From positions 1 through 37,925 of the forward strand of contig CAMTON010000028.1 of NCBI GenBank assembly GCA_947074105.1: a DNA stretch of 37,925 nucleotides, given 5' to 3'. Below, one piece after another: positions 67-34,087 of this stretch; position 1 is the first letter of the stretch, and each line of letters starts with the position of its first letter. This DNA is from an uncultured Bacteroidales bacterium (GTDB taxonomy: Bacteria; Bacteroidota; Bacteroidia; Bacteroidales; JAUNSR01). Under the pieces are notes generated by a model. The model made no database searches and had not been told where the DNA came from. It saw nothing but the letters and a program-made list of their open reading frames with translations. A program made the translations under genes and the position numbers.

Positions 67-2088
67 TTAAATCGCTTCTTTCAACGGTTCCTTTTCACTC
101 AAAAGTTTTATCTGACGAATTTCTTTGTCAAGGTTTTCATAAATTGAATTCTTACTCTTGAATTCAGGAACGATCTCCTTCATGCAGCGAACAACATCAT
201 AATCTTTGGCTGCAAGAGCAAGATTAATAAGTTCCTTTAATGCTGATTTTACTTCATCATAATCATAATTGCGGACTTTTGCCACTTTTATCTTTTCATG
301 ATAAGTAGGCAGAGTCTTTTCTTTATCATTAAGAAGTTCTTCATACAGTTTTTCTCCCGGACGTAATCCGGTCTCAATAATATTTATATCCTTATTCGGA
401 GTGAGCCCGGTAAGGCATATCATTCTTTTTGCAAGATCATATATTCTTACGGGAGCTCCCATGTCAAACACGAATATCTCGCCTCCTTTTCCCATACATC
501 CGGCTTCCATTACAAGGCGGCAAGCCTCTGGAATTGTCATAAAGTATCTGATTATATCCTTATGAGTAACTGTAACAGGACCTCCTTTTGAAATCTGTTC
601 TTTAAAAAGAGGAACAACTGATCCGTTTGATCCCAAAACATTTCCGAATCTTGTAGTAATAAAATGAGGTCGTCTCTGTTTTTCAAGGGGAAACTGATGC
701 AACCAAAGGTTCAGCGACTGAACATAAATTTCAGCTATCCTTTTTGTAGCTCCCATAACATTCGTCGGATTTACCGCTTTATCGGTAGAAATCATAACAA
801 ATTTCTGAGAGTTATATTTAACAGCCATATCCGCAACATTGCAGGTACCCATTACATTCACCCTTACTGCTTCCGAAGGATATCTTTCCATCATCGGAAC
901 ATGTTTATATGCTGCAGCATGATAGACTATTTCAGGTCTGAATTTATCAAAAGCATACTCAAGGCGTTCTTTATTTCTTACATCACCTATCATAATTATC
1001 ACTTTCGCATCAGGAAATACATTATTTACTTTTAATTCTATGTTATAAAGAGGAGTCTCCGCATTATCAAACAGAACAATCAGTTTAGGTTTAAAGGCTG
1101 CAACCTGCATAACAACTTCACTTCCGATCGACCCGGCAGCACCGGTAATCAGAACAACAGCATCACGATGACTGTTTTCAACCTCCGGACTGCTGGTATG
1201 GATAACATCTCGTTCAAGCAAATCTTCTATCTTTATTTCATTAACAGATATCCTTTCTTTATACCTGTGTCCCTTAAGGTCTGAAACGCCTCCTTTAACC
1301 AACAGATGCATTTTCGTATCAAGAAAAAGATCAAGCTGTTCGGCTGGAATTTTCTTAAGATGCTCCTCGTGAAAGACCAGATGATTACAGTTCACTTTAT
1401 CCATAAGAACAAACATCTCTTCTTCTGTCTGGGGCATACTGTAAACCGGAATGGAATCAATCCTCATCGGAGAAGATGATTTAAGTGTATTCAAAAGACA
1501 TACTGGCTTATATCTCATCTCTTTATCAAGCTCCATACTCTGTGCTATGGCCAGCGATTTTACATCGTTTCCGTAAATAATCACTCTCATCTGCGATGTA
1601 GTCGCAAGCTGAATGAAATAAAAGAGATATTTAACTCCGATTCTGGAGATAAAGAGCATTATAAATGCTATTCCTCCAAGCAGAATCACAGATGTCCCTC
1701 CCGGAAATGGAGTATTTAAGTTAAGTGTCCTGAATAATTCATTTATTATTATCAGCATTAGTGAACTGCTTCCCACATATGCAAGAAGCCGCCCCAATTC
1801 ATTTATTCCCGAATAACGTACGATTCCTTTGTAAATACCGAATGTCAGTTCCATTATAAGATATATTCCCATTGAAAAATACATTGCATTTCCTAAAGGA
1901 GTAAATATTACATCTCCGCTGATAGTTCCGTATATAAACTGAAGAATCATATAGGAGGAAAGAACCAAAATCATATCGGTAAATAAAACCAGCCAGCATG
2001 GCATATATATTCTGAAAAAACTCTTTTTGCTTAACTCCAATAATAAACCGTTAATCCAGAAAGCAATTTGTTTCTTTATTTTTTTCAT
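67..2088 (-). CDS. Membrane nucleoside-diphosphate sugar 4,6-dehydratase (PglF/WbpM/CapD family)
   Basis: Likely converts UDP-GlcNAc to the UDP-4-keto-6-deoxy sugar at the inner membrane, the first step towards a 4-amino-4,6-dideoxy sugar. The 673-residue length fits the long PglF/WbpM type. Four membrane segments are visible near residues 31-53, 68-88, 101-119 and 133-155. They are followed by a first, degenerate Rossmann domain (from about 167) and a catalytic SDR domain with the dinucleotide motif GAAGSIGSE at 316-324. The active-site stretch STDKAVNPTNVMGATKR (434-450) has Met445 where classical SDRs have Tyr in YxxxK, which is normal for this subfamily. It lies 99 bases behind the aminotransferase gene, presumably co-transcribed with it, and apart from the export operon. 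The family call is firm. The exact stereochemistry of the product cannot be read from sequence. Confidence 0.93.
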   Translation of the reverse strand: MKKIKKQIAFWINGLLLELSKKSFFRIYMPCWLVLFTDMILVLSSYMILQFIYGTISGDVIFTPLGNAMYFSMGIYLIMELTFGIYKGIVRYSGINELGRLLAYVGSSSLMLIIINELFRTLNLNTPFPGGTSVILLGGIAFIMLFISRIGVKYLFYFIQLATTSQMRVIIYGNDVKSLAIAQSMELDKEMRYKPVCLLNTLKSSSPMRIDSIPVYSMPQTEEEMFVLMDKVNCNHLVFHEEHLKKIPAEQLDLFLDTKMHLLVKGGVSDLKGHRYKERISVNEIKIEDLLERDVIHTSSPEVENSHRDAVVLITGAAGSIGSEVVMQVAAFKPKLIVLFDNAETPLYNIELKVNNVFPDAKVIIMIGDVRNKERLEYAFDKFRPEIVYHAAAYKHVPMMERYPSEAVRVNVMGTCNVADMAVKYNSQKFVMISTDKAVNPTNVMGATKRIAEIYVQSLNLWLHQFPLEKQRRPHFITTRFGNVLGSNGSVVPLFKEQISKGGPVTVTHKDIIRYFMTIPEACRLVMEAGCMGKGGEIFVFDMGAPVRIYDLAKRMICLTGLTPNKDINIIETGLRPGEKLYEELLNDKEKTLPTYHEKIKVAKVRNYDYDEVKSALKELINLALAAKDYDVVRCMKEIVPEFKSKNSIYENLDKEIRQIKLLSEKEPLKEAI

Positions 2089-2187: not shown

Positions 2188-3408
2188 TCAGAAGCATTCT
2201 GCTAAAGTAAGTTCAGGTTCATTTACGCAAACAACTTGTTTTATAACTTCTACAATTCGGTTAAGGTCATCTTCATCCAGCATCGGATGCGAGGGTAAGC
2301 ACAGGCCGCCTTTAAAGAGATCTTCTGCAACTTTTCCTCCGTAATACGGAGCATCTTTAAACAGAGGTTGTAAATGCATCGGTTTCCATAAAGGACGCAC
2401 CTCAATATCCTCTTTTATCATCATATCCTGAATATCCTCTCTTGTTTTTCCTCCACATTTTTCAGGATCAATAACTATCGACGTAAGCCAGTAGTTAGAA
2501 AAATAATCATTATCAGGTTCTGACTGGAACGATATTCCTTCCACATCTTTTAATGCATTGCGATACCATTGATTTATTTCTCTTCTTCGCTTTATATGTT
2601 CTTCCAGGATCATCAGCTGTCCCCGTCCTATTCCGGCAGAAACATTGCTCAGACGATAATTATATCCAACTACAGAATGCTGATAATGCGGAGCCTGATC
2701 GCGGGCCTGAGTTGCCAGAAACTTTGCATTTTTATCAAGTTCTTCACTATGACATATCAGCGCTCCTCCTCCCGATGTTGTAATAATCTTATTACCGTTA
2801 AAAGAAAGGGCAGCCCAATCTCCTATTGTTCCGCAGGCCTGATTCTTAAAATATGAACCCAAAGCCTCTGCTGCATCTTCGACGACAGGAATATTATATT
2901 TTTTAGCGATTCTGTTTATCTCTCCCATTTTAGCGGGCATACCATAAAGATGTACCGGAACTATAGCTTTAGGATAAGAACCGGTCTTTTCCTTTCTGTC
3001 TATAATAGCTTCTTCCATTTTCACAGGATCCATATTCCAGGTATCCTTTTCTGAATCTACGAATACAGGTTTTGCGAACTGATAAATAACGGGATTTGCA
3101 GAAGCGATAAATGTAAAAGATTGACATATCACTTCATCTCCGGCTTTTACACCGGCCTGCACCAAAGCAAGATGAATGGCAGCTGTGCCTGAAGAAAGCG
3201 CTACAACATAATTTTTTCTGTTAAGGTTCTCATTTCTTTCCGACAAACAAATTTCCAATTCTTTTTCAAATCCATCAACGTTAGGGCCTAAGGGTACAAT
3301 CCAGTTGGTATCAAAAGCCTCCTTAATAAATTTTTGTTCTTGCCCTCCCATATGTGCCAGGGAAAGCCAAATTCTTTGCTTCATACCTTTACTATAATTA
3401 TCGAACAT
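2188..3408 (-). CDS. DegT/DnrJ/EryC1/StrS PLP aminotransferase (PglE-like)
   Basis: Predicted sugar aminotransferase that turns the 4-keto-6-deoxy product of the next gene into a UDP-4-amino-4,6-dideoxy-HexNAc. The 406 residues carry the family landmarks: the N-terminal HMGG...PLGPNVDGFE stretch (about 19-48) typical of PglE-type enzymes, SSGTAAIHL (72-80), the cofactor-binding Asp in VVEDAAEALG (Asp178) and the PLP lysine in SFNGNKIITTSGGG (Lys207). A second ATG at residue 9 (start 3384) would also fit the family's usual N terminus, so the start is uncertain by eight residues. It is the first gene of a two-gene unit with the dehydratase. A hairpin terminator lies upstream, between it and the long operon, so it probably has its own promoter. 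I could not identify a convincing one. Confidence 0.92.
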   Translation of the reverse strand: MFDNYSKGMKQRIWLSLAHMGGQEQKFIKEAFDTNWIVPLGPNVDGFEKELEICLSERNENLNRKNYVVALSSGTAAIHLALVQAGVKAGDEVICQSFTFIASANPVIYQFAKPVFVDSEKDTWNMDPVKMEEAIIDRKEKTGSYPKAIVPVHLYGMPAKMGEINRIAKKYNIPVVEDAAEALGSYFKNQACGTIGDWAALSFNGNKIITTSGGGALICHSEELDKNAKFLATQARDQAPHYQHSVVGYNYRLSNVSAGIGRGQLMILEEHIKRRREINQWYRNALKDVEGISFQSEPDNDYFSNYWLTSIVIDPEKCGGKTREDIQDMMIKEDIEVRPLWKPMHLQPLFKDAPYYGGKVAEDLFKGGLCLPSHPMLDEDDLNRIVEVIKQVVCVNEPELTLAECF

Positions 3409-7332: not shown

Positions 7333-8019
7333 TTATTTCTTTCTTATAAGCGGAATAGATATTCCGGCTCCCATTCCCCAATAACCTGTATAACGACTTT
7401 CTCCTATTTCTCCGGTGAAACCGTTAGGCGTAAGTGTCGCGTTACCTTCTAGTTCAAGATATATTTCATTCCATATAGGAATTCTAAGGATCAGAGAGGC
7501 GCAAGGATTCAGAAAATCTCCCTTTGGTATTCCCATATAACGAAAAACATGGGCATACGACAGTCCCGCAGCAAATCTTATATCCCAGCTATTCGGTTTC
7601 ATACCATATCCGAATATCTTTCTTATATCCGTAAACAACATTACTGAAAGATCCACATATCTGATTTTTTCTTCAAACCATCCATCCTCCAGACGACAGG
7701 ATTCCGGTAAAGGAAAATCAGAAACAAGATATTTGCCATCTTTATCATAAAAAAGATGACCGCATTCCTCCAGAGCATAACCTTTCATTGCATATCCTCC
7801 CAGATTCATACGTATCCCATATGCCGGATTAAGTCTGTAAGCGACTCCAAGCTGATACCAGGGCGTAAATCTCTTTCCCGCACCTTTATAATAGGCATCT
7901 GCCTCTCCTTCAAACTCTCGTGCACCGGCATTAACATTAAAACTCAGTTTCTCACTCTGTCCGGCTGCGGAATATGTTATGCCGGCGAGGAGAACACAAA
8001 CTGATAATTCTCTTTTCAT
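7333..8019 (-). CDS. Exported beta-barrel-like outer-membrane protein of unknown function
   Basis: I do not recognise a family. The 228-residue product starts with a signal peptide (residues 1-20, MKRELSVCVLLAG then SAAGQ, with no lipobox). The mature part has alternating aromatic/hydrophobic and polar residues in short strands rich in Gly and Tyr (for example WYQLGVAYRL, GIRMNLGGYAM, GYWGMGAGISIPLI), as expected for a small outer-membrane barrel of roughly eight to ten strands. Three cysteines remain after cleavage. It is the only envelope protein of this type in the locus and sits between two glycosyltransferase genes, 46 bases after one and 21 before the next, so it is probably co-expressed with them. 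A role in surface display, export or polymer attachment is possible but unproven. Confidence 0.75.
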   Translation of the reverse strand: MKRELSVCVLLAGITYSAAGQSEKLSFNVNAGAREFEGEADAYYKGAGKRFTPWYQLGVAYRLNPAYGIRMNLGGYAMKGYALEECGHLFYDKDGKYLVSDFPLPESCRLEDGWFEEKIRYVDLSVMLFTDIRKIFGYGMKPNSWDIRFAAGLSYAHVFRYMGIPKGDFLNPCASLILRIPIWNEIYLELEGNATLTPNGFTGEIGESRYTGYWGMGAGISIPLIRKK

Positions 8020-11172: not shown

Positions 11173-11715
11173 TTAGTTTATTTCAATATTCTGTTTAAGT
11201 CTTACAACTGAGCCCGCAGGTATTTTTCCTTTTACCACACAGCCTGCTCCGATAACACATCTGTCTCCTATCTCGGTTCCCCGAAGTATCACCACATTTG
11301 AAGCTATCCAGCATCTGTCTCCTATTGATACAGAAGTTTTTTTCAGATCATGGCTTACACCTTCCTCTCTGTCATAGCAGTGGTCATTATCATAAATCTT
11401 TACGTCAGGACCAAAAAGACAGTCATCCCCGATACTTACTGATTCATGAGAACTGATCATACATCCCCTGTTGAAATATGTTCTTTTTCCGATACTGATA
11501 TTTCCTGATCCGGTAGATTCGATCACGCAACCCGGAGATACAGCTATGTTATGATCAAAATTTATCTTTCCGTTTTCCCTTATTATCACCGATGCAAACG
11601 GACTTATCCTCTGAATACGCGAAGCATTATAAGCCTTTCCGTAAACAAAGCGTCTGTAAAATCCTGTAATCATATTCCAGGTAATAAGAAATAAAAGATT
11701 TATTTTTCCGATCAT
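11173..11715 (-). CDS. Left-handed beta-helix (hexapeptide) O-acyltransferase
   Basis: Predicted cytoplasmic acetyl-CoA-dependent acyltransferase acting on a sugar nucleotide or lipid-linked sugar. The 180 residues hold imperfect hexapeptide repeats from about 40 to 165 (for example ISIGKRTYFNRGCMIS, VSIGDDCLFGPDVKI, IGDRCVIGAGCVV) and the likely catalytic His112 in DNDHCYD, as in the maltose/galactoside acetyltransferase (WcaF-like) group. The usual C-terminal GNPAK is replaced by AGSVVRLKQN. It lacks the N-terminal Rossmann-like domain of PglD, so it is not an obvious N-acetyltransferase for the 4-amino sugar. Flanked by GT4 genes with gaps of 3 and 11 bases. Confidence 0.88.
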   Translation of the reverse strand: MIGKINLLFLITWNMITGFYRRFVYGKAYNASRIQRISPFASVIIRENGKINFDHNIAVSPGCVIESTGSGNISIGKRTYFNRGCMISSHESVSIGDDCLFGPDVKIYDNDHCYDREEGVSHDLKKTSVSIGDRCWIASNVVILRGTEIGDRCVIGAGCVVKGKIPAGSVVRLKQNIEIN

Positions 11716-14610: not shown

Positions 14611-15783
14611 TCATGCATTGCATAATTCAGTGAGTTTTTGTCCCGCTTCAAACGCTCTCCTCTTATATTCGGGCATTATTTCTTTTAAATGATTACGTAT
14701 TTCTGTTTCACTATTAAGGATATATGAAAATGAATCTACAAGACTGTCTTCATTTTTTAAATCCTGCACAGGAATAACCAGTCTCTTCCATTCTCCGAAA
14801 AGATCAGTTGCAATCCCTTTTGCCTTTATTGAATATCCGACAACAAGAGTCGGAATACATTCCGAATATGCTGCTATTGAAGCATGTGTTCTTGCTGTAA
14901 TAATAAAACGACATTGAGCGATGACGTCTTTTATCTTTTCCGCTCCGTAACCGGGAATCATTACAATGCGATCATTTCCTTTAAAATTCTCATATAATTT
15001 TTCCAGGGGAATCCTGTCATCATTATGATCCCATATCACATGCGGAATAAGAGCAACACTCATTGTTGTGTTTTCCAGTATATGATTAATAAGTCTTATA
15101 TAACATTTCAAAGTCAGCCCCGATTGCTTTTCATATGATAAGATCATCGGACTTACATTTATCCCTACTGTGTTATTTTTCTGAAACCCTGAAGGTAGTT
15201 CAGCCTTTTCACGTGATAGGACAAAAGCAGGATCAGGATAAAGAATTACATTTTTCAGATTCTTATTCTTCAGAGCTTCATAGGTAAGAGATTCTCTTGT
15301 GAATATGTAGTCAAAACCATATAAATCATCAAGCATTTCCCTGTCGATTGCTTCCGGATTTATGGAACATCCCCATAATATATTTTTCGTTTTGGTTCTT
15401 CTTACTTCCCGGTTAATAAGATACAGGTGTTTTGGAACGTCATAACAATAATTATCTCCTCCGATAGACAATACTGCTTTTGCTGTTTTTGAACTATCCG
15501 GAACAGGAGAAAAATGAAGTTTATCAATAGCTTCTCGGTCTATTTTAAGCTTATGTTTTATCACTGAAGTTAAGAAGCCTTTCATCTTATAAGAAACCTC
15601 TCTGTTTATCGGAGATACCTTACACAAACTGTCAAGACCGGCTTCACAATCTTCATAAGTTCTTGTTGAGAACAATTCGAATGTATAATCATTCAGAATC
15701 TTAGCTGTTGAACGCACTATCGCTTCACAGCCTCTGTTTCCGCTTCCACCGTGTGGATATAATAAAATCTTATTCTCTTTCAT
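14611..15783 (-). CDS. Polysaccharide pyruvyl transferase family protein
   Basis: Member of the CsaB/WcaK/AmsJ family, which transfers pyruvate from phosphoenolpyruvate to form a ketal on a sugar of the repeat unit and so adds a negative charge. The 390 residues carry the N-terminal HGGSGNRGCEAIV (11-23), the glycine-rich SIGGDNYCYD (106-115), TRESLTYEAL (162-171), the substrate-binding RTH (298-300) in ITARTHASIAAY, and GYSIKAKGIATDLFG (316-330), all standard family positions. It lies 5 bases after the GT2 at 15789-16784 and 97 bases before wzx. Some family members are not proven pyruvyl transferases, so the activity is likely rather than certain. Confidence 0.9.
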   Translation of the reverse strand: MKENKILLYPHGGSGNRGCEAIVRSTAKILNDYTFELFSTRTYEDCEAGLDSLCKVSPINREVSYKMKGFLTSVIKHKLKIDREAIDKLHFSPVPDSSKTAKAVLSIGGDNYCYDVPKHLYLINREVRRTKTKNILWGCSINPEAIDREMLDDLYGFDYIFTRESLTYEALKNKNLKNVILYPDPAFVLSREKAELPSGFQKNNTVGINVSPMILSYEKQSGLTLKCYIRLINHILENTTMSVALIPHVIWDHNDDRIPLEKLYENFKGNDRIVMIPGYGAEKIKDVIAQCRFIITARTHASIAAYSECIPTLVVGYSIKAKGIATDLFGEWKRLVIPVQDLKNEDSLVDSFSYILNSETEIRNHLKEIMPEYKRRAFEAGQKLTELCNA

Positions 15784-16798: not shown

Positions 16799-17359
16799 TT
16801 AACGTACAAAACCGACAGAATCATCAAGCGCTTCCTGCATCTCTTTACGTTTATCTTCTGTAATCTGAGAAATCGTATAATCGTAATCATAACTTGGAGA
16901 TTTCTCAAACTGATTTTTTCGTTTTAAATGATATTTATCATAATCTCCTATTATCCTTGCAGGATTTCCTGCTACAACGACTCCTTCAGGAACGGATTTT
17001 GTTATTACTGAACCTGATCCTATAATTACATTATTTCCAATTGTTACATTTGGCAGGATTATGGTTCCGGCTCCTATAAATACATCATTACCGATTTTTA
17101 CTTTACCGATAAGAGTATAATCAAGATTTCTTTTCGTACTCGCATCATGCGCAAGAATATGTACTCTGGGAGCAATAGTCACTCTGTCGCCTATCTCTAT
17201 CAGCCAGCAATGTCCAGGATCCAGAATACACTCTCCCATTATATGACAGTCCTTACCAAGCTTCATTCCGTTTTTCAGAGCCATTTCCAGAGGTGATATA
17301 TCAACTCCCAGAACCTGTCTTCGAATCCATATTATTATAAACCTTAATATTCTTTTCAT
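16799..17359 (-). CDS. Hexapeptide acyltransferase, serine acetyltransferase-like
   Basis: Cytoplasmic left-handed beta-helix acyltransferase of 186 residues, predicted to acetylate a sugar precursor. Hexapeptide repeats run from about 35 to 130 (IEIGDRVTIAPRVHIL, VKIGNDVFIGAGTIIL, VTIGNNVIIGSGSVIT), with the likely catalytic His71 in LAHDAST and the closing VVVAGNPARII (127-137). A polar C-terminal tail of about 50 residues follows. No PglD-like N-terminal domain is present. The gene overlaps the stop of the upstream GT4 by 4 bases, so the two are translationally coupled. Whether it makes O- or N-acetyl groups cannot be told. Confidence 0.9.
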   Translation of the reverse strand: MKRILRFIIIWIRRQVLGVDISPLEMALKNGMKLGKDCHIMGECILDPGHCWLIEIGDRVTIAPRVHILAHDASTKRNLDYTLIGKVKIGNDVFIGAGTIILPNVTIGNNVIIGSGSVITKSVPEGVVVAGNPARIIGDYDKYHLKRKNQFEKSPSYDYDYTISQITEDKRKEMQEALDDSVGFVR

Positions 17360-25636: not shown

Positions 25637-26242
25637 ATGAAATATACACATATTAAAACAATAGCTGATATTATAATAGCATCAGTCTCTTTACTGATCC
25701 TGTCTCCGGTGATTATATTTATTACTATAATTCTTGCTTTTGCCAACGGCGGTAATCCTTTTTTCTTTCAGACAAGAGTCGGAAAATATGAAAAGCAGTT
25801 CAGAATAATAAAATTCAGAACAATGAATAATAAGCGTGATTCTGACGGAAATCTGCTGTCAGATGAAGAGAGACTTACATCTGTAGGTAAATTCATAAGA
25901 AGTACTTCGCTTGACGAAATTCCTCAGTTATTCAATGTAGCAACCGGTGATATGGCTCTTATAGGTCCGCGCCCGCTCCTCGTTAGTTATATACCCTTAT
26001 ATAATGAAAGACAAAGAAAAAGACATAATGTTTTACCGGGAATAACAGGTTGGGCCCAGGTTAACGGAAGAAACTCTATAAGCTGGGAAAATAAATTTGA
26101 ACATGATGTATGGTATGTTGAAAATATATCCTTCCTGCTGGATCTGAAAATATTGATTCTTACCTTCTGGAAGGTTATAAAACGTGATGATATCAGTAGT
26201 GCTGACTGTGCTACAATGGAACCGTTTACGGGAAATAAATAA
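25637..26242 (+). CDS. pglC: Initiating monotopic phosphoglycosyl transferase (PglC-like)
   Basis: Transfers a phospho-sugar from its UDP donor to undecaprenyl phosphate, the committed first step of repeat-unit assembly. The 201 residues match the minimal PglC form: a re-entrant membrane helix (about 10-35), GGNPFFFQTRVGK (38-50), FRIIKFRTM (55-63), the catalytic Asp93-Glu94 in TSLDEIPQL, IGPRPLL (109-115), PGITGWAQVNGR (134-145) and a complete C terminus ending MEPFTGNK. PglC-type enzymes prefer UDP-diNAc-bacillosamine or related 4-amino sugars, consistent with the dehydratase and aminotransferase at the left of the window. In typical clusters pglD, an aminotransferase and pglF follow directly. 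Here an intrinsic terminator follows instead. Confidence 0.9.
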   Translation: MKYTHIKTIADIIIASVSLLILSPVIIFITIILAFANGGNPFFFQTRVGKYEKQFRIIKFRTMNNKRDSDGNLLSDEERLTSVGKFIRSTSLDEIPQLFNVATGDMALIGPRPLLVSYIPLYNERQRKRHNVLPGITGWAQVNGRNSISWENKFEHDVWYVENISFLLDLKILILTFWKVIKRDDISSADCATMEPFTGNK

Positions 26243-26702: not shown

Positions 26703-27003
26703 GCATACATTAGCTTTAATATTATTTTGTTGACTTAAAAAAATAAAATTATTGCTTAGAACTTAGCCGATATAATAGTGTATACATTACACAAAAATTA
26801 TTTCATTAATATTTTCCGGATAAACACATATAAACGACTTTAATTAATGTCTGAAAAATAACCTGAAAAAGAATATTATGAAATAAAAGAAACAGTAAGT
26901 TATGCCGAAATGCAAAAGGAGAATAAAAGAAAAAAATGAAAATCAGTGTTTTTCTTATTCTTTGCTCTGTAAAAAATATAAGAAAGAAATAATCTACAGT
27001 CTT

Positions 27004-28014
27004 ATGAAAAAGAAAATCAGTTTTGTTGTTCCAATGTATAATGTTGCCGCATATATAAAACGATGTCTTGATAGTTTATTAAATCAGGATATTGATAAAA
27101 GCGAATATGAAATCATTATTGTTGATGACGGTTCAACGGATAATTCCGCAGAGATTGTTTTCTCATATCAAAAGAGTTTTGATAACATACATTATTATTA
27201 TCAGAAGAATCAGGGCCTTTCTACTACCAGAAATAACGGAATTAATCGGGCCACAGGAGAATATGTATGGTTTGTTGATTCAGATGACTTTATCAGACCG
27301 AATATATTAGCGACATTATATAATAAGGCACAGGAGAAATCTCTTGATATCCTGACATTTAATTCAAGAAGGGTAAGCGAAGATGTCGCCTTTTCTGAAG
27401 TCGCAAAGAATACTCAGCCGACTGAAGTAATGAATGGAGAAAATTATATAGGTAGATATAATTATAATAACGGTGTATGGTATTATCTGATTAAAAGGGA
27501 GTATCTGGAAATTAACAAATATGAATTCGTTAACGGACGGTTTCTTGAAGACGGAATGTTTACGATGAATGTCTTTTTTAATACAAAGCGAATCGCACAT
27601 ATAGATATTGAAGGTTATTATTATTGGGCCAATCCATTTTCAATAACTACAAGAAAGGATGTGAGTCATTATCTTAAAATTATTGATGATTACAGATTTG
27701 CAATTAAATATTTTAATGACTTTATTGATTCTAACTATCATAAGATATCAGATAAAAAATGCATAGAAAGGATGAAAGTCAGAAGAGACAGTTATGTCTT
27801 CTTTCTTATCTTAAGATTGATTAAGTCGACTCTGCCTGCAGAAATTATATGGAAAACATATTCCGAACTAAAAAGTAATATGAATATTCCTCTCAAAAGT
27901 CTTGTTTCTGAAGATTATACTGCAAAACAGTATCTACTTCCTGTATTAATTTTCAATAACAGTTTATTGTTTTATATACTAACATGGTGTTCACGCCTTA
28001 AATATCAGAAATGA
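27004..28014 (+). CDS. Glycosyltransferase family 2
   Basis: GT-A glycosyltransferase of 336 residues from the ATG at 27004, where the domain begins with KKKISFVVPMYN. The frame is also open back to an ATG at 26902, but those 34 extra residues are Lys-rich and lie outside the domain, so I prefer the inner start. Motifs: IIVDDGSTDNS (38-48), QGLSTTRNNGINRA (70-83), the metal-binding DSDDF (92-96) and FLEDGMFTMNVFF with the probable catalytic Asp. It is the first gene of the second plus-strand module. Its stop overlaps the ATP-grasp start by 4 bases, so the two are coupled. Confidence 0.88.
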   Translation: MKKKISFVVPMYNVAAYIKRCLDSLLNQDIDKSEYEIIIVDDGSTDNSAEIVFSYQKSFDNIHYYYQKNQGLSTTRNNGINRATGEYVWFVDSDDFIRPNILATLYNKAQEKSLDILTFNSRRVSEDVAFSEVAKNTQPTEVMNGENYIGRYNYNNGVWYYLIKREYLEINKYEFVNGRFLEDGMFTMNVFFNTKRIAHIDIEGYYYWANPFSITTRKDVSHYLKIIDDYRFAIKYFNDFIDSNYHKISDKKCIERMKVRRDSYVFFLILRLIKSTLPAEIIWKTYSELKSNMNIPLKSLVSEDYTAKQYLLPVLIFNNSLLFYILTWCSRLKYQK

Positions 28015-28973
28015 ATAACATCTTAATAACATCTGCAGGAAAACGGGTTACTCTCGTTGAGCAGTTCAAAAGAAATCTTAAGGTATATTTTCCGGAATCA
28101 GAAGTTATGACAACAGATATGAATCCGGAAATGGCTCCCGCATGTATTATCTCAGACAGGAGTTTTAAGGTTCCGCGTGTTGATGATAAGGATTATATTA
28201 TCATATTGCTAAATCTCTGTATGAAAAACGGAGTGAGAATTGTTATTCCGACTATTGATACTGAATTGCAGGTGTTGGCTGACAACAAAAAGTTATTCGG
28301 TGAATGCGGAATTGATATTTTGGTTTCCTGTGCTGATTTTATCTCTTTATGCCGGGATAAAAGAAATACAAATGATTTTTTTGTTGAACGTAATATCAGA
28401 ATTCCAAAACCCGTCAGTAAAAATGACCCTACCTATCCGTTTTTCGCGAAACCTTATGACGGTTCACTTAGTAAAGATCTTTTCATAGTAAAATCAGAAG
28501 AGGAATACACTGATATGATCAGGTCGCACCCTAAACTTATTTTTATGGAATATATTGATAAATCTGTTTATAAGGAGTTTACAGTCGACATGTATTACGG
28601 GAAAGATAACAGAGTAAAGTCAATTGTTCCGAGAGAAAGACTGGAGATAAGGGCCGGAGAGATAAATAAAGGTATTACGAGAAAGAATTTTCTTATTGAA
28701 TATCTGCTTGAAAGAATGAATCATATACCGGGAGTTACAGGTTGTATCTGTATTCAGCTTTTTTACAAAGAAGAAGACAATGATATAGTCGCTATTGAAA
28801 TCAATCCCCGTTTCGGAGGAGGCTATCCGCTTTCATATCATGCGGGTGCAAATTATCCCGAATATATAATAAAAGAATATCTGTTGAATGAAAGTATTTA
28901 TTATAATGATCAATGGAAAGATAACACTTTGTTTTTAAGATACGATCAGGAGGTTGTTGTCTATGCGGAGTAA
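28011..28973 (+). CDS. ATP-grasp enzyme, CarB/PylC-like
   Basis: Predicted ATP-dependent ligase of 320 residues. An N-terminal pre-ATP-grasp domain starts NILITSAGKRVTL (3-15) and contains VIPTIDTEL (78-86). The ATP-grasp part has FFAKPYDGSLS (144-154), the nucleotide-contacting FMEYID (178-183), YKEFTVDMYY (187-196) and the Mg-ATP loop IEINPRFGGGYPLS (262-275). ATP-grasp enzymes activate a carboxylate as an acyl phosphate and join it to an amine or thiol. The substrate here is unknown. The gene overlaps the GT2 before it by 4 bases and the HAD gene after it by 11. The conserved pairing suggests they act on the same sugar or decoration. It is not a true carbamoyl-phosphate synthase, being about one third of that length. 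Confidence 0.88.
   Translation: MNNILITSAGKRVTLVEQFKRNLKVYFPESEVMTTDMNPEMAPACIISDRSFKVPRVDDKDYIIILLNLCMKNGVRIVIPTIDTELQVLADNKKLFGECGIDILVSCADFISLCRDKRNTNDFFVERNIRIPKPVSKNDPTYPFFAKPYDGSLSKDLFIVKSEEEYTDMIRSHPKLIFMEYIDKSVYKEFTVDMYYGKDNRVKSIVPRERLEIRAGEINKGITRKNFLIEYLLERMNHIPGVTGCICIQLFYKEEDNDIVAIEINPRFGGGYPLSYHAGANYPEYIIKEYLLNESIYYNDQWKDNTLFLRYDQEVVVYAE
28948..28953 (+). promoter_or_regulatory. Strong Shine-Dalgarno site that sets the HAD start
   Basis: AGGAGG lies 9 bases upstream of the ATG at 28963, inside the end of the ATP-grasp gene. It favours that ATG over an in-frame TTG at 28954, which is too close to the site. Such a full-consensus site is uncommon in Bacteroidota. Confidence 0.7.
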
Positions 28974-29628
28974 AGTCATTGTCTTTGATCTTGATGATAC
29001 ACTGTATTATGAGATTGATTATCTGAAATCCGCATTTAAGGAGATCTCCGAAAAATTCAGTTACAGACTTTCCTCATCGGAAATTTATGAAACGATGTTT
29101 GATCTTTATAATAAAAAAGGGGATGCTTTCAGATTTGCCGTTGAAAATATAAACGACAATGTCGATAAAGAGGATCTTATTAATGTTTACAGAAATCATC
29201 ATCCGGATATTTCACTTGCAGAAGAAGTGGTTTCCGTACTTGATTTTCTTAAAAAAGAAAATTATATAATAGGAATCATTACGGACGGAAGATCGGTAAC
29301 CCAGAGGAATAAGATAAAAAGTCTTGAACTTAACAGATGGATCTGTGATGATGATATTGTAATTTCCGAAGAGTTCGGATCAGAGAAGCCATGTGTTTCC
29401 AATTATGAATATTTCGAAAAGAAATATCCCGGAAATGAGTTCTATTATATCGGGGATAATGTAAAAAAGGATTTTATCGCTCCGAAGGAACTTGGATGGA
29501 AGTCTTTCTGTCTGATTGACAGGGGATGGAATATACACTCTCAGGATATTATTACTGATCCTGAATTGAATCCTGATTTATTTATATCTGACATGAACTT
29601 TATCAGATATATTAATGATCAGTATTAA
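28963..29628 (+). CDS. HAD-superfamily hydrolase (YjjG/5'-nucleotidase-like)
   Basis: Predicted phosphatase of 222 residues with all HAD motifs. Motif I FDLDDTL has the nucleophile Asp9 and general acid Asp11, the helical cap lies between about 15 and 80, motif II is IITDG, motif III is the Lys in SEKP, and motif IV is IGDNVKKDF. The start at 28963 is set by the AGGAGG site 9 bases upstream. The gene overlaps the ATP-grasp stop by 11 bases. A HAD phosphatase beside an ATP-grasp ligase could make or dephosphorylate the substrate being ligated, for example a sugar phosphate or phosphorylated acid, but the sequence does not say which. Confidence 0.88.
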   Translation: MRSKVIVFDLDDTLYYEIDYLKSAFKEISEKFSYRLSSSEIYETMFDLYNKKGDAFRFAVENINDNVDKEDLINVYRNHHPDISLAEEVVSVLDFLKKENYIIGIITDGRSVTQRNKIKSLELNRWICDDDIVISEEFGSEKPCVSNYEYFEKKYPGNEFYYIGDNVKKDFIAPKELGWKSFCLIDRGWNIHSQDIITDPELNPDLFISDMNFIRYINDQY

Positions 29629-31662: not shown

Positions 31663-33108
31663 ATGCTGTTCAATTCATTAGAGTTTATTTTATTCTTACC
31701 AATAGTATTCATACTCTATTGGTTTGTTTTCGAGCGGAACCTGAAAATTCAGAATCTTTTCATCGTTGTTGTCAGTTATATTTTTTATGGCTGGTGGAAT
31801 GTTATGTTTTTGCTTTTGATTGCATTTACGACACTTTGCAGCTATATAAGCGGTATATTAATAGAAAAATCCTCAGACAGGAGGAAAGCAAAGATTATAA
31901 ATACTCTGAACATATTACTTAATATTTCAATTCTTGGCGTATATAAGTATTATGATTTCTTTGTGAACTCATTTATAGAGGCATTCTCCGGAATAGGAAT
32001 AAATATGCAGGGAAGTCTTTTACATCTTATTTTACCTGTAGGAATAAGTTTCTATACGTTTCAGGCATTGTCTTACTCAATAGATGTATATAAAAAGAAG
32101 ATCAGTGCGACAAAAGATATCGTATCTTTCTTTGCATATGTAAGTTTTTTTCCTCAGCTTATTGCCGGACCTATTGAGAGAGCTACAAATCTGCTGCCTC
32201 AGTTTCAGAAGAGGCGTGAGTTTGATTACTGCCAGGCTGTTGACGGAATGAGACTTATATTATGGGGATTCTTTAAAAAGATTGTTATCGCCGATACTTG
32301 TGCAGGAAAAGTGGATCTTATTTTTCAGAATCATGAGACATTGCCATCCAGTTCCTTATGGCTTGGTGCAATTTTATTCACATTTCAGATATATGGTGAT
32401 TTCTCCGGTTACTCTGATATAGCAATAGGAGTAGCGAAACTATTCGGGATTAACCTTATGAAGAATTTCAATTTTCCTTATTTCTCACGTGACATAGCTG
32501 AATTCTGGAGAAGATGGCATATTTCACTTTCTACATGGTTCAGGGATTATATCTATATTCCGCTTGGCGGGAGCAGAAACGGGAAATGGAACGGCTTACG
32601 TAATACTTTAATAATATTTACTGTATCAGGATTATGGCACGGCGCGAACTGGACTTATGTTGTATGGGGATTATATCATGGTCTTTTGTTTATTCCGTTA
32701 TTACTGTTGAATTTAAACAGAAAACATACAGGAAACATAGTCGAAAACAGGCTTTTGCCATCTTTTAAAGAGGCATTCAGCATATTTACAACATTTATAC
32801 TTGTTGTAATAGGTTGGGTTATATTCAGAGCCGAATCTATAGAGACAGCTTATACTTATATAAAAGGGATGTTCGGAAGTTCAATTCTTTCCTATCCGAG
32901 AGAAGCTCTGGGCATTGATACGATAATATATCCTCTGATTGTTTTATTTATAATTATTGAATGGGTGCAGAGAAATAAAGAGCATGCTTTATGCATCGAT
33001 ATAATACAATTCAAATATTTAAGAACTGCCGTTTATTTATTTATTCTAATAGTAATATCATTCTTTATAATAGGGACACATGCAGAATTCATATATTTTC
33101 AGTTTTAA
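31663..33108 (+). CDS. MBOAT-family O-acyltransferase (AlgI/PatA-like)
   Basis: Polytopic membrane protein of 481 residues, predicted to move an acyl group, usually acetyl, from the cytoplasm across the membrane to an exopolysaccharide. It has about ten or more helices and the MBOAT landmarks: GWWN near 43-46, LPVGISFYTFQALSYSID (124-141), GPIERATNLLPQF (169-181), DFSGYSDIAIG (246-256), FWRRWHISLSTWFRDYIYIPLGG (split at 281-303, His286) and SGLWHGANW (322-330) with the catalytic His326. It lies 34 bases before the SGNH-like gene, the usual partner arrangement (AlgI with AlgJ/AlgX, PatA with PatB). Confidence 0.94.
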   Translation: MLFNSLEFILFLPIVFILYWFVFERNLKIQNLFIVVVSYIFYGWWNVMFLLLIAFTTLCSYISGILIEKSSDRRKAKIINTLNILLNISILGVYKYYDFFVNSFIEAFSGIGINMQGSLLHLILPVGISFYTFQALSYSIDVYKKKISATKDIVSFFAYVSFFPQLIAGPIERATNLLPQFQKRREFDYCQAVDGMRLILWGFFKKIVIADTCAGKVDLIFQNHETLPSSSLWLGAILFTFQIYGDFSGYSDIAIGVAKLFGINLMKNFNFPYFSRDIAEFWRRWHISLSTWFRDYIYIPLGGSRNGKWNGLRNTLIIFTVSGLWHGANWTYVVWGLYHGLLFIPLLLLNLNRKHTGNIVENRLLPSFKEAFSIFTTFILVVIGWVIFRAESIETAYTYIKGMFGSSILSYPREALGIDTIIYPLIVLFIIIEWVQRNKEHALCIDIIQFKYLRTAVYLFILIVISFFIIGTHAEFIYFQF

Positions 33109-33142: not shown

Positions 33143-34087
33143 ATGAAAAAATTATTTTTTAATGGAATAGTCCTTTTAGTGTTGTTTACTATATCGTTAT
33201 CAATAATAAGTTTTACAAATCTCCGGAATATAAAACCGCTTGATAAAGAAAATTTTATTACTGATTCTGTCACTATTCTGGCAATTGGAGATTCTCATAT
33301 TCAATATGCCTTAAGAGATAATTCTTATCCGGAATTATTGAATATAGCAAAAGGAGGTGAGGGGTACTTATTCAATAATGCAAAATTCAGATTATTCAAT
33401 TCTTCTGAGATTAAACATGTAATACTTGCTTTCAATTATTTCAGTCTTACCGGCGGAGATAAACCGGGAGAGATTACTGATGCGTCAATAATAAGAACTT
33501 ATCTGCCCGTACTGAATCTTTATCCTGATTTGTTTGAAAAAAGCGGACTTAATCTGAAGAATAAGGCATATCTATCTTCTTATCTTAATTTAAATCTGGG
33601 GTTTCCATCAAAGGAGATTTTTAATGATTTCTTCCAGGGAGGATTAAATGGCAATAATATTTCTTTTGTAGGCGGTTATGAAAATTATTTCAATTCTAAT
33701 ATTAATAAACTGACGGATGTTAAAAACAGACATGACAGATTATACGGTAATTATTCCATTGGTAATTATAATCTTGAACTCTTAAGGAGTTTCATAAAAG
33801 AGATGAATGAAAATAATATCGAAGTGATTCTTTATAATGCCCCATGTCATCATCTTTTTATAAATCTGACATCTGAAATTCATATCAGAAAAATGGACAG
33901 CATTGCGTTCTCCTTATGTAAAGATTATAATGCCAGATATATTAATCATTATGATTTAAATCTTCCTGATTCCTGTTTCACTGATTTTGATCACCTGAAC
34001 AGCCATGGGGCAGATATCGTAACTCCTATTTTAATTGACATCATAAAGGGCAGTTCTAAGATTGCTCTGAAAGAAAGTAACCATTAA
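33143..34087 (+). CDS. SGNH-like periplasmic partner of the MBOAT acyltransferase
   Basis: Membrane-anchored protein of 314 residues. One N-terminal helix (about 7-25) is followed by a periplasmic domain with the SGNH block I motif AIGDSHIQYA (47-56, nucleophile Ser51) and the block V motif DFDHLNSHGA, giving the catalytic Asp281 and His284. AlgX/AlgJ- and PatB-type proteins receive the acyl group from the MBOAT protein and place it on the glycan. Position (34 bases after the MBOAT gene) and motifs agree with that role. Overall similarity to named members is low as far as can be judged by eye, so it is best described as SGNH/DUF-type. Confidence 0.8.
   Translation: MKKLFFNGIVLLVLFTISLSIISFTNLRNIKPLDKENFITDSVTILAIGDSHIQYALRDNSYPELLNIAKGGEGYLFNNAKFRLFNSSEIKHVILAFNYFSLTGGDKPGEITDASIIRTYLPVLNLYPDLFEKSGLNLKNKAYLSSYLNLNLGFPSKEIFNDFFQGGLNGNNISFVGGYENYFNSNINKLTDVKNRHDRLYGNYSIGNYNLELLRSFIKEMNENNIEVILYNAPCHHLFINLTSEIHIRKMDSIAFSLCKDYNARYINHYDLNLPDSCFTDFDHLNSHGADIVTPILIDIIKGSSKIALKESNH

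Follow-up and report, generated by a model that had tools for sequence, protein, structure and literature searches.

The overlapping ATP-grasp and HAD genes at 28011–29628 of a Bacteroidales contig of 37,925 nucleotides (the window, by which we mean this whole stretch of DNA) on balance probably serve as an N-acyl-swap cassette within a pathway of the bacillosamine type, for which we infer the substrates, products and order of steps. The genes on which this reading is built are the following:

67–2088, minus strand: PglF-like NDP-sugar 4,6-dehydratase (PF02719; best PDB match WlaL 5bju, 2.2e-81)
2188–3408, minus strand: PglE-like DegT sugar 4-aminotransferase, the proposed amine source (PF01041; PDB 1o61 and 4ztc, ~1e-88)
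25637–26242, plus strand: PglC-like phosphoglycosyl transferase, PGT (PF02397; PDB 8g1n, 1.2e-66)
27006–28014, plus strand: GT2 glycosyltransferase coupled to the ATP-grasp/HAD genes (27006 is the start judged from homologues; the ORF itself opens earlier, at 26902)
28011–28973, plus strand: predicted ATP-grasp amide ligase of 320 aa, PylC-like N domain plus ATP-grasp (from Pfam, PDB match, model and residues)
28948–28953, plus strand: RBS-like AGGAGG for the HAD gene, within the 3′ end of the ATP-grasp gene (from direct reading of the sequence)
28963–29628, plus strand: predicted HAD-IA phosphatase of 221 aa (PF13419; alternative upstream start TTG 28954)

Three overlapping genes and their products

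The ORF list and direct inspection of the sequence revealed intact ORFs for the GT2 (26902–28014), the ATP-grasp protein (28011–28973) and the HAD protein (28954–29628). An earlier note on this DNA had described the ATP-grasp gene as overlapping both of its neighbours, and this is borne out: it has 4 bp (ATGA) in common with the GT2 gene, and its overlap with the HAD gene amounts to 20 bp when the latter starts at TTG 28954 or 11 bp when it starts at ATG 28963. Because homologues start at the position of the ATG and an AGGAGG precedes it, ATG 28963 is most likely the genuine HAD start, and the TTG adopted in the earlier note is probably wrong. The 11-bp overlap was identical in four other loci (L006–L009) and in a second GT2-ATPgrasp-HAD-GT2 set of the same genome (L002, on contig C171), the ATP-grasp, HAD and GT2 proteins of which are 90%, 79% and 88% identical to those of the window. 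Like this 88%-identical paralogue, the window GT2 probably starts at 27006, yielding a protein of 336 aa. The corresponding GT2 gene also adjoins the pair in L058, L048, L051 and L118, and lies nearby in L012, L049 and L050. This recurrence, both in the second copy and across Bacteroidota, indicates that the overlap and gene order go beyond chance.

The family assignments made in the earlier note hold as well. The ATP-grasp protein matched PF21360, PF15632 and PF02655, and scored 372.6 bits against the NCBIfam subfamily PRK12767 ('carbamoyl phosphate synthase-like'), just missing the equivalog cut-off of 390. A PDB search by sequence retrieved a single solved structure, 2pn1 (1.7e-35), and the structures nearest to the predicted model (pLDDT 89.6) were 2pn1, PylC, PurK and L-amino-acid ligases. 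Across 35 HAD-linked members, Lys117, Lys147, Glu189, Glu263, Asn265 and Arg267 were invariant, which is the pattern expected for an active ligase, and these conserved Lys, Glu, Asn and Arg residues together with the PylC-like N domain place the protein among the PylC-like ATP-grasp ligases (PRK12767 group). PylC and 2pn1 have their fold and PylC-like N-terminal domain in common with the window protein, but PylC is a ligase of the pyrrolysine pathway, 2pn1 is uncharacterised, and neither has a link to glycans.

The HAD protein matched PF13419/PF00702, with D9, D11, K142, D165 and D170 invariant and T107 being either T or S (numbering from ATG 28963), and it thus carries the DxD motif, the motif II T/S, the motif III K and the motif IV acidic pair (GDN..KD) of HAD-IA phosphatases. 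Its model (pLDDT 91.5) resembled N-acylneuraminate-9-phosphatase (NANP, 2w4m) best. This full catalytic set, the confident model and the closeness to NANP make a phosphatase the most likely function, although the database relatives (nucleotidases, phosphoglycolate phosphatases and NANP) are not specific enough to point to one substrate. The substrate of NANP carries its phosphate on a three-carbon tail.

Elsewhere in the window, we observed a polysaccharide pyruvyl transferase (14611–15783), from which the same polymer would be expected to contain a pyruvylated sugar, and a DltB-like MBOAT O-acyltransferase (31663–33108). The latter is followed by an ORF lacking Pfam or NCBIfam matches (33143–34087) that is possibly its periplasmic partner. 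A capsule-operon protein of 228 aa (7333–8019) had no Pfam match either.

Conservation of the pair across genomes

The earlier note had called for a gene-neighbourhood survey, which we conducted by a scan seeded on the ATP-grasp protein alone and a survey of 396 Bacteroidota genomes, after which the flanks of the loci were read. This revealed a conserved ATP-grasp/HAD cassette: a same-strand HAD gene was located within 3 kb of the ATP-grasp gene in 25 of the 25 close relatives, and directly behind it in 24, these loci being phylogenetically non-independent. A PglC-like PGT was found within 6 kb in 22 of the 25 and a PglE-like aminotransferase in 15, with short contigs unable to show a neighbour being scored as lacking one. 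The commonest order among the relatives was PGT-ATPgrasp-HAD-aminotransferase(-dehydratase), and one locus (L118) displayed the window order PGT-GT2-ATPgrasp-HAD.

In the reverse search from the HAD protein across the 396 genomes, all matches of at least 140 bits adjoined an ATP-grasp gene, as did several matches below 140 bits. The distances of the two proteins were correlated: across 27 loci the Spearman coefficient reached 0.82, against a maximum of 0.57 under permutation, and among the close relatives it was 0.55 (versus 0.43 by permutation). The ATP-grasp protein was patchily distributed, with 17 of 396 Bacteroidota genomes giving a match at E≤1e-40. Of the loci examined, by far the most lay within clusters of glycan genes. 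Beyond the Bacteroidota, the pair was encountered in Priestia (in the order aminotransferase-PGT-ATPgrasp-HAD), in Acetoanaerobium and in Alphaproteobacteria. The alphaproteobacterial versions lie with a sugar dehydratase and a formyltransferase, the latter taking the place of the PGT as neighbour, so the sugar there may differ. No relative was found in the phage records searched.

Two further arrangements were noted along the way. A Ruegeria plasmid (L042, 920–9640) carries two inverted ATP-grasp/HAD sets with identical protein accessions, as an apparent inverted duplication, and L092, L095, L097 and L120 encode SDR::ATP-grasp fusions of ~640 aa, some of them followed by a HAD gene.

The acetyltransferase position in amino-sugar pathways

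In a comparison with the Campylobacter PglF-PglE-PglD-PglC pathway, the window dehydratase matches PglF, the aminotransferase PglE and the PGT PglC, so that the PglF-, PglE- and PglC-like proteins characteristic of a bacillosamine-type UDP-sugar pathway are all encoded there. The best PDB match of the PGT, 8g1n, is an N,N′-diacetylbacillosaminyl-1-phosphate transferase, and 1o61 and 4ztc, matched by the aminotransferase, are structures that we take to be PglE aminotransferases. This aminotransferase was the sole member of its family found in the genome, and its homologue comes after the HAD gene in relatives. The PGT lies 1.8 kb upstream of the pair, and the aminotransferase and dehydratase are ~25 kb off on the opposite strand, making the linkage looser in the window than in the relatives.

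Unlike the Campylobacter pathway, however, the genome of the window (95.7% complete) yielded no full-length PglD (PglD_N plus hexapeptide), the matches being CysE/WbbJ-like hexapeptide proteins, and the ATP-grasp/HAD pair stands in that place. The lack of a detected PglD suggests that the pathway is not one for canonical diNAcBac. A PglD remnant was sought in the 660-bp gap upstream of the GT2 gene and not found there. A plasmid of Segatella copri (L037) carries an internally deleted PglD of 115 aa (7658–8005) between the PGT and ATP-grasp genes, and in two Parabacteroides loci (L006, 5305–6960; L007, 5314–6960) a seemingly intact PglD and the ATP-grasp protein form a single in-frame fusion. 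The junction of this fusion is a poly-G tract of 13 G in L006 versus 10 G in L007, in frame in both, making it a candidate phase-variable switch; a simple-sequence repeat is also reported for neisserial pglB2 (Viburiene 2013, by its title as cited in PMC6959607). From gene content and order, we infer that the pair occupies the slot of the PglD N-acetyltransferase in a bacillosamine-type pathway.

Comparable arrangements were found in other amino-sugar pathways. Four legionaminic operons (L056, L117, L119 and L121) have the order LegB-LegC-ATPgrasp-LegI-LegG, with a related but HAD-free ATP-grasp gene at the site of LegH, and none of the four yielded a LegH-like gene. In a pseudaminic-like locus (L070/L116), a GNAT::ATP-grasp fusion precedes a HAD gene and PseI, while in L072/L120 an SDR::ATP-grasp fusion precedes a HAD gene and a PseI-like synthase. 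The rule that recurs across these loci is that a 4-amine is formed on an NDP-sugar and the ATP-grasp gene comes next. Within the HAD-linked subtype, R214 and K220 are conserved. The HAD-free subtype differs from it at S8, G10, T81, E85, R214 and D312, indicating that the presence of the HAD gene follows the ATP-grasp subtype, and this tie in turn suggests that it may follow which acid is used.

Putative chemistry and its alternatives

In the proposed route, the PglF-like dehydratase and PglE-like aminotransferase would generate UDP-2-acetamido-4-amino-2,4,6-trideoxyhexose. On the 4-amino group of this UDP-4-amino sugar, the ATP-grasp protein is proposed to act as N-acyl ligase: it would use ATP to activate a short carboxylic acid and join this acid to the 4-amine, replacing the acetyl transfer of PglD and leaving an acid other than acetate there. 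The HAD protein is proposed to act on the acyl donor or on the phospho-acylated product, and would thus take a phosphate off the acid before ligation or off the product after it. The PglC-like PGT would then transfer the sugar-1-phosphate to undecaprenyl phosphate, and the GT2 encoded next to the pair would extend the resulting lipid-linked sugar. With regard to its first part, an ATP-grasp enzyme joining an acid to the 4-amine in the place of PglD, the gene context makes this route quite likely.

The earlier note had proposed that the ATP-grasp enzyme attaches a carboxylic acid to an amino sugar and that the HAD enzyme acts on a phosphorylated partner. The former is supported by the sugar 4-aminotransferases beside the pair and by the acetyltransferase slot, and the latter by the conserved catalytic residues and the strict co-occurrence. 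Its view that no known capsule chemistry accounts for the pair does not stand, since the PglB2 pathway of Neisseria, in which a PGT and an ATP-grasp domain lead to a glyceramido sugar, is a close precedent. PMC11130364 and PMC6959607 attribute GATDH to PglB2, an ATP-grasp/PGT protein that takes the place of the acetyltransferase-type PglB, and the kind of reaction is in that sense already known. PMC6959607 describes the C-terminal domain as 'proposed' to perform the transfer, and a figure legend there draws a HAD hydrolase among the neighbours in Neisseria pgl loci, with N. oralis as an example. Judged by descriptions, slot and neighbours, both systems appear to pair an ATP-grasp enzyme with a PGT of the PglC type at a bacillosamine-type locus (PglB/C/D), in the place of an acetyltransferase. 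Unlike the bifunctional PglB2, however, the window encodes ATP-grasp and PGT separately (and Parabacteroides fuses ATP-grasp to PglD), and its HAD gene is a strict, overlapping partner within a Wza/Wzc-type capsule cluster in Bacteroidota.

Because of this role of PglB2 and the HAD hydrolase drawn in Neisseria pgl loci, glycerate is the acid we favour, by analogy and with slightly less than an even chance of being correct. It would derive from 3-phosphoglycerate and lead to a GATDH-like sugar. The choice of 3-phosphoglycerate as donor, with dephosphorylation by the HAD enzyme after ligation, is modelled on the C. jejuni HS:2 capsule, for which PMC11800379 describes cooperation of the ATP-grasp domain Cj1438C with the HAD phosphatase Cj1435. 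With respect to the substituent put forward in the earlier note, an amide-linked acid on an amino sugar is thus retained, but an amino acid is less favoured than glycerate.

With the same slot and amide bond, the acid could also be a different one, whether an amino acid or not (alanine, glycine, hydroxybutyrate or glycolate), with the HAD enzyme serving sugar or donor supply rather than acting on a phosphoglycerate. Such an acid would suit the closeness of the ATP-grasp model to PylC and L-amino-acid ligases after 2pn1, and a substituent with a free amine would agree with the formyltransferase neighbours in Alphaproteobacteria. We nevertheless consider it unlikely, as the constancy of the HAD partner points to a phosphate on the acid or the product, NANP acts on a three-carbon tail phosphate, and the reported glyceramido precedent concerns an ATP-grasp enzyme in the same slot.

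It is quite improbable that one of the two hexapeptide proteins of the window (11173–11715 and 16799–17359) N-acetylates the sugar while the pair acts later, on the lipid-linked sugar or another residue. Either could still N-acylate this sugar, but both lack the PglD N-domain and resemble the CysE/WbbJ type, and PglD decays or is fused in relatives exactly at the ATP-grasp position. Uronamide formation in the Campylobacter manner is very improbable. Here the ATP-grasp enzyme would couple a phosphorylated amine to a uronic acid, and the phosphate would be taken off by the HAD enzyme. Cj1438C and Cj1435 are described to cooperate in this way (PMC11800379), and they share with the window an ATP-grasp amide ligase that works with a HAD phosphatase in capsule synthesis, the phosphate there leaving after ligation. 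Cj1438C, however, is TupA-like and amidates the carboxyl of glucuronic acid, so that the polarity of its amide is the reverse of that proposed for the window, the ATP-grasp protein of which belongs to the other, PylC-like family. In addition, sugar 6-dehydrogenase families found no match among the window ORFs scanned, and the pair is linked to 4-aminotransferases and 4,6-dehydratases. Finally, a glycan-unrelated housekeeping role in carbamoyl-phosphate-type or nucleotide metabolism has the family name in its favour, but the patchy distribution and the glycan setting of most loci make its probability negligible. Family assignment and gene context both led us to reject the uronamide and housekeeping readings.

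Which acyl groups its amino sugars carry influences the surface antigens of a bacterium, and the genes for the rarer groups are hard to recognise. As far as our searches reached, the open-licence literature does not describe a stand-alone cassette of overlapping ATP-grasp and HAD genes in the capsule loci of Bacteroidota, nor its recurrence in three amino-sugar pathways. For Tannerella forsythia, which carries a glyceroyl group on its pseudaminic acid, the responsible gene 'remains elusive' according to PMC6120980, and PMC6388019 calls the genetic basis of this group a major challenge. The cassette offers a concrete, portable gene candidate for glyceroyl-type reactions, the Bacteroidota genes for which are reported as unknown. 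It also provides a rule that can be read from genomes: a dehydratase and a 4-aminotransferase with an ATP-grasp (and HAD) gene and no acetyltransferase would predict a non-acetyl N-acyl sugar. More tentatively, it is possible, if short of probable, that one ATP-grasp superfamily acts as a portable module for swapping N-acyl groups, standing in for the acetyltransferase or working beside it in bacillosamine, legionaminic and pseudaminic pathways of at least three phyla, with the HAD-linked subtype ligating 3-phosphoglycerate and the HAD enzyme dephosphorylating. If true, the genes sought for N-glyceroyl sugars would thereby be found, and in Parabacteroides the module may be phase-switched via its poly-G tract.
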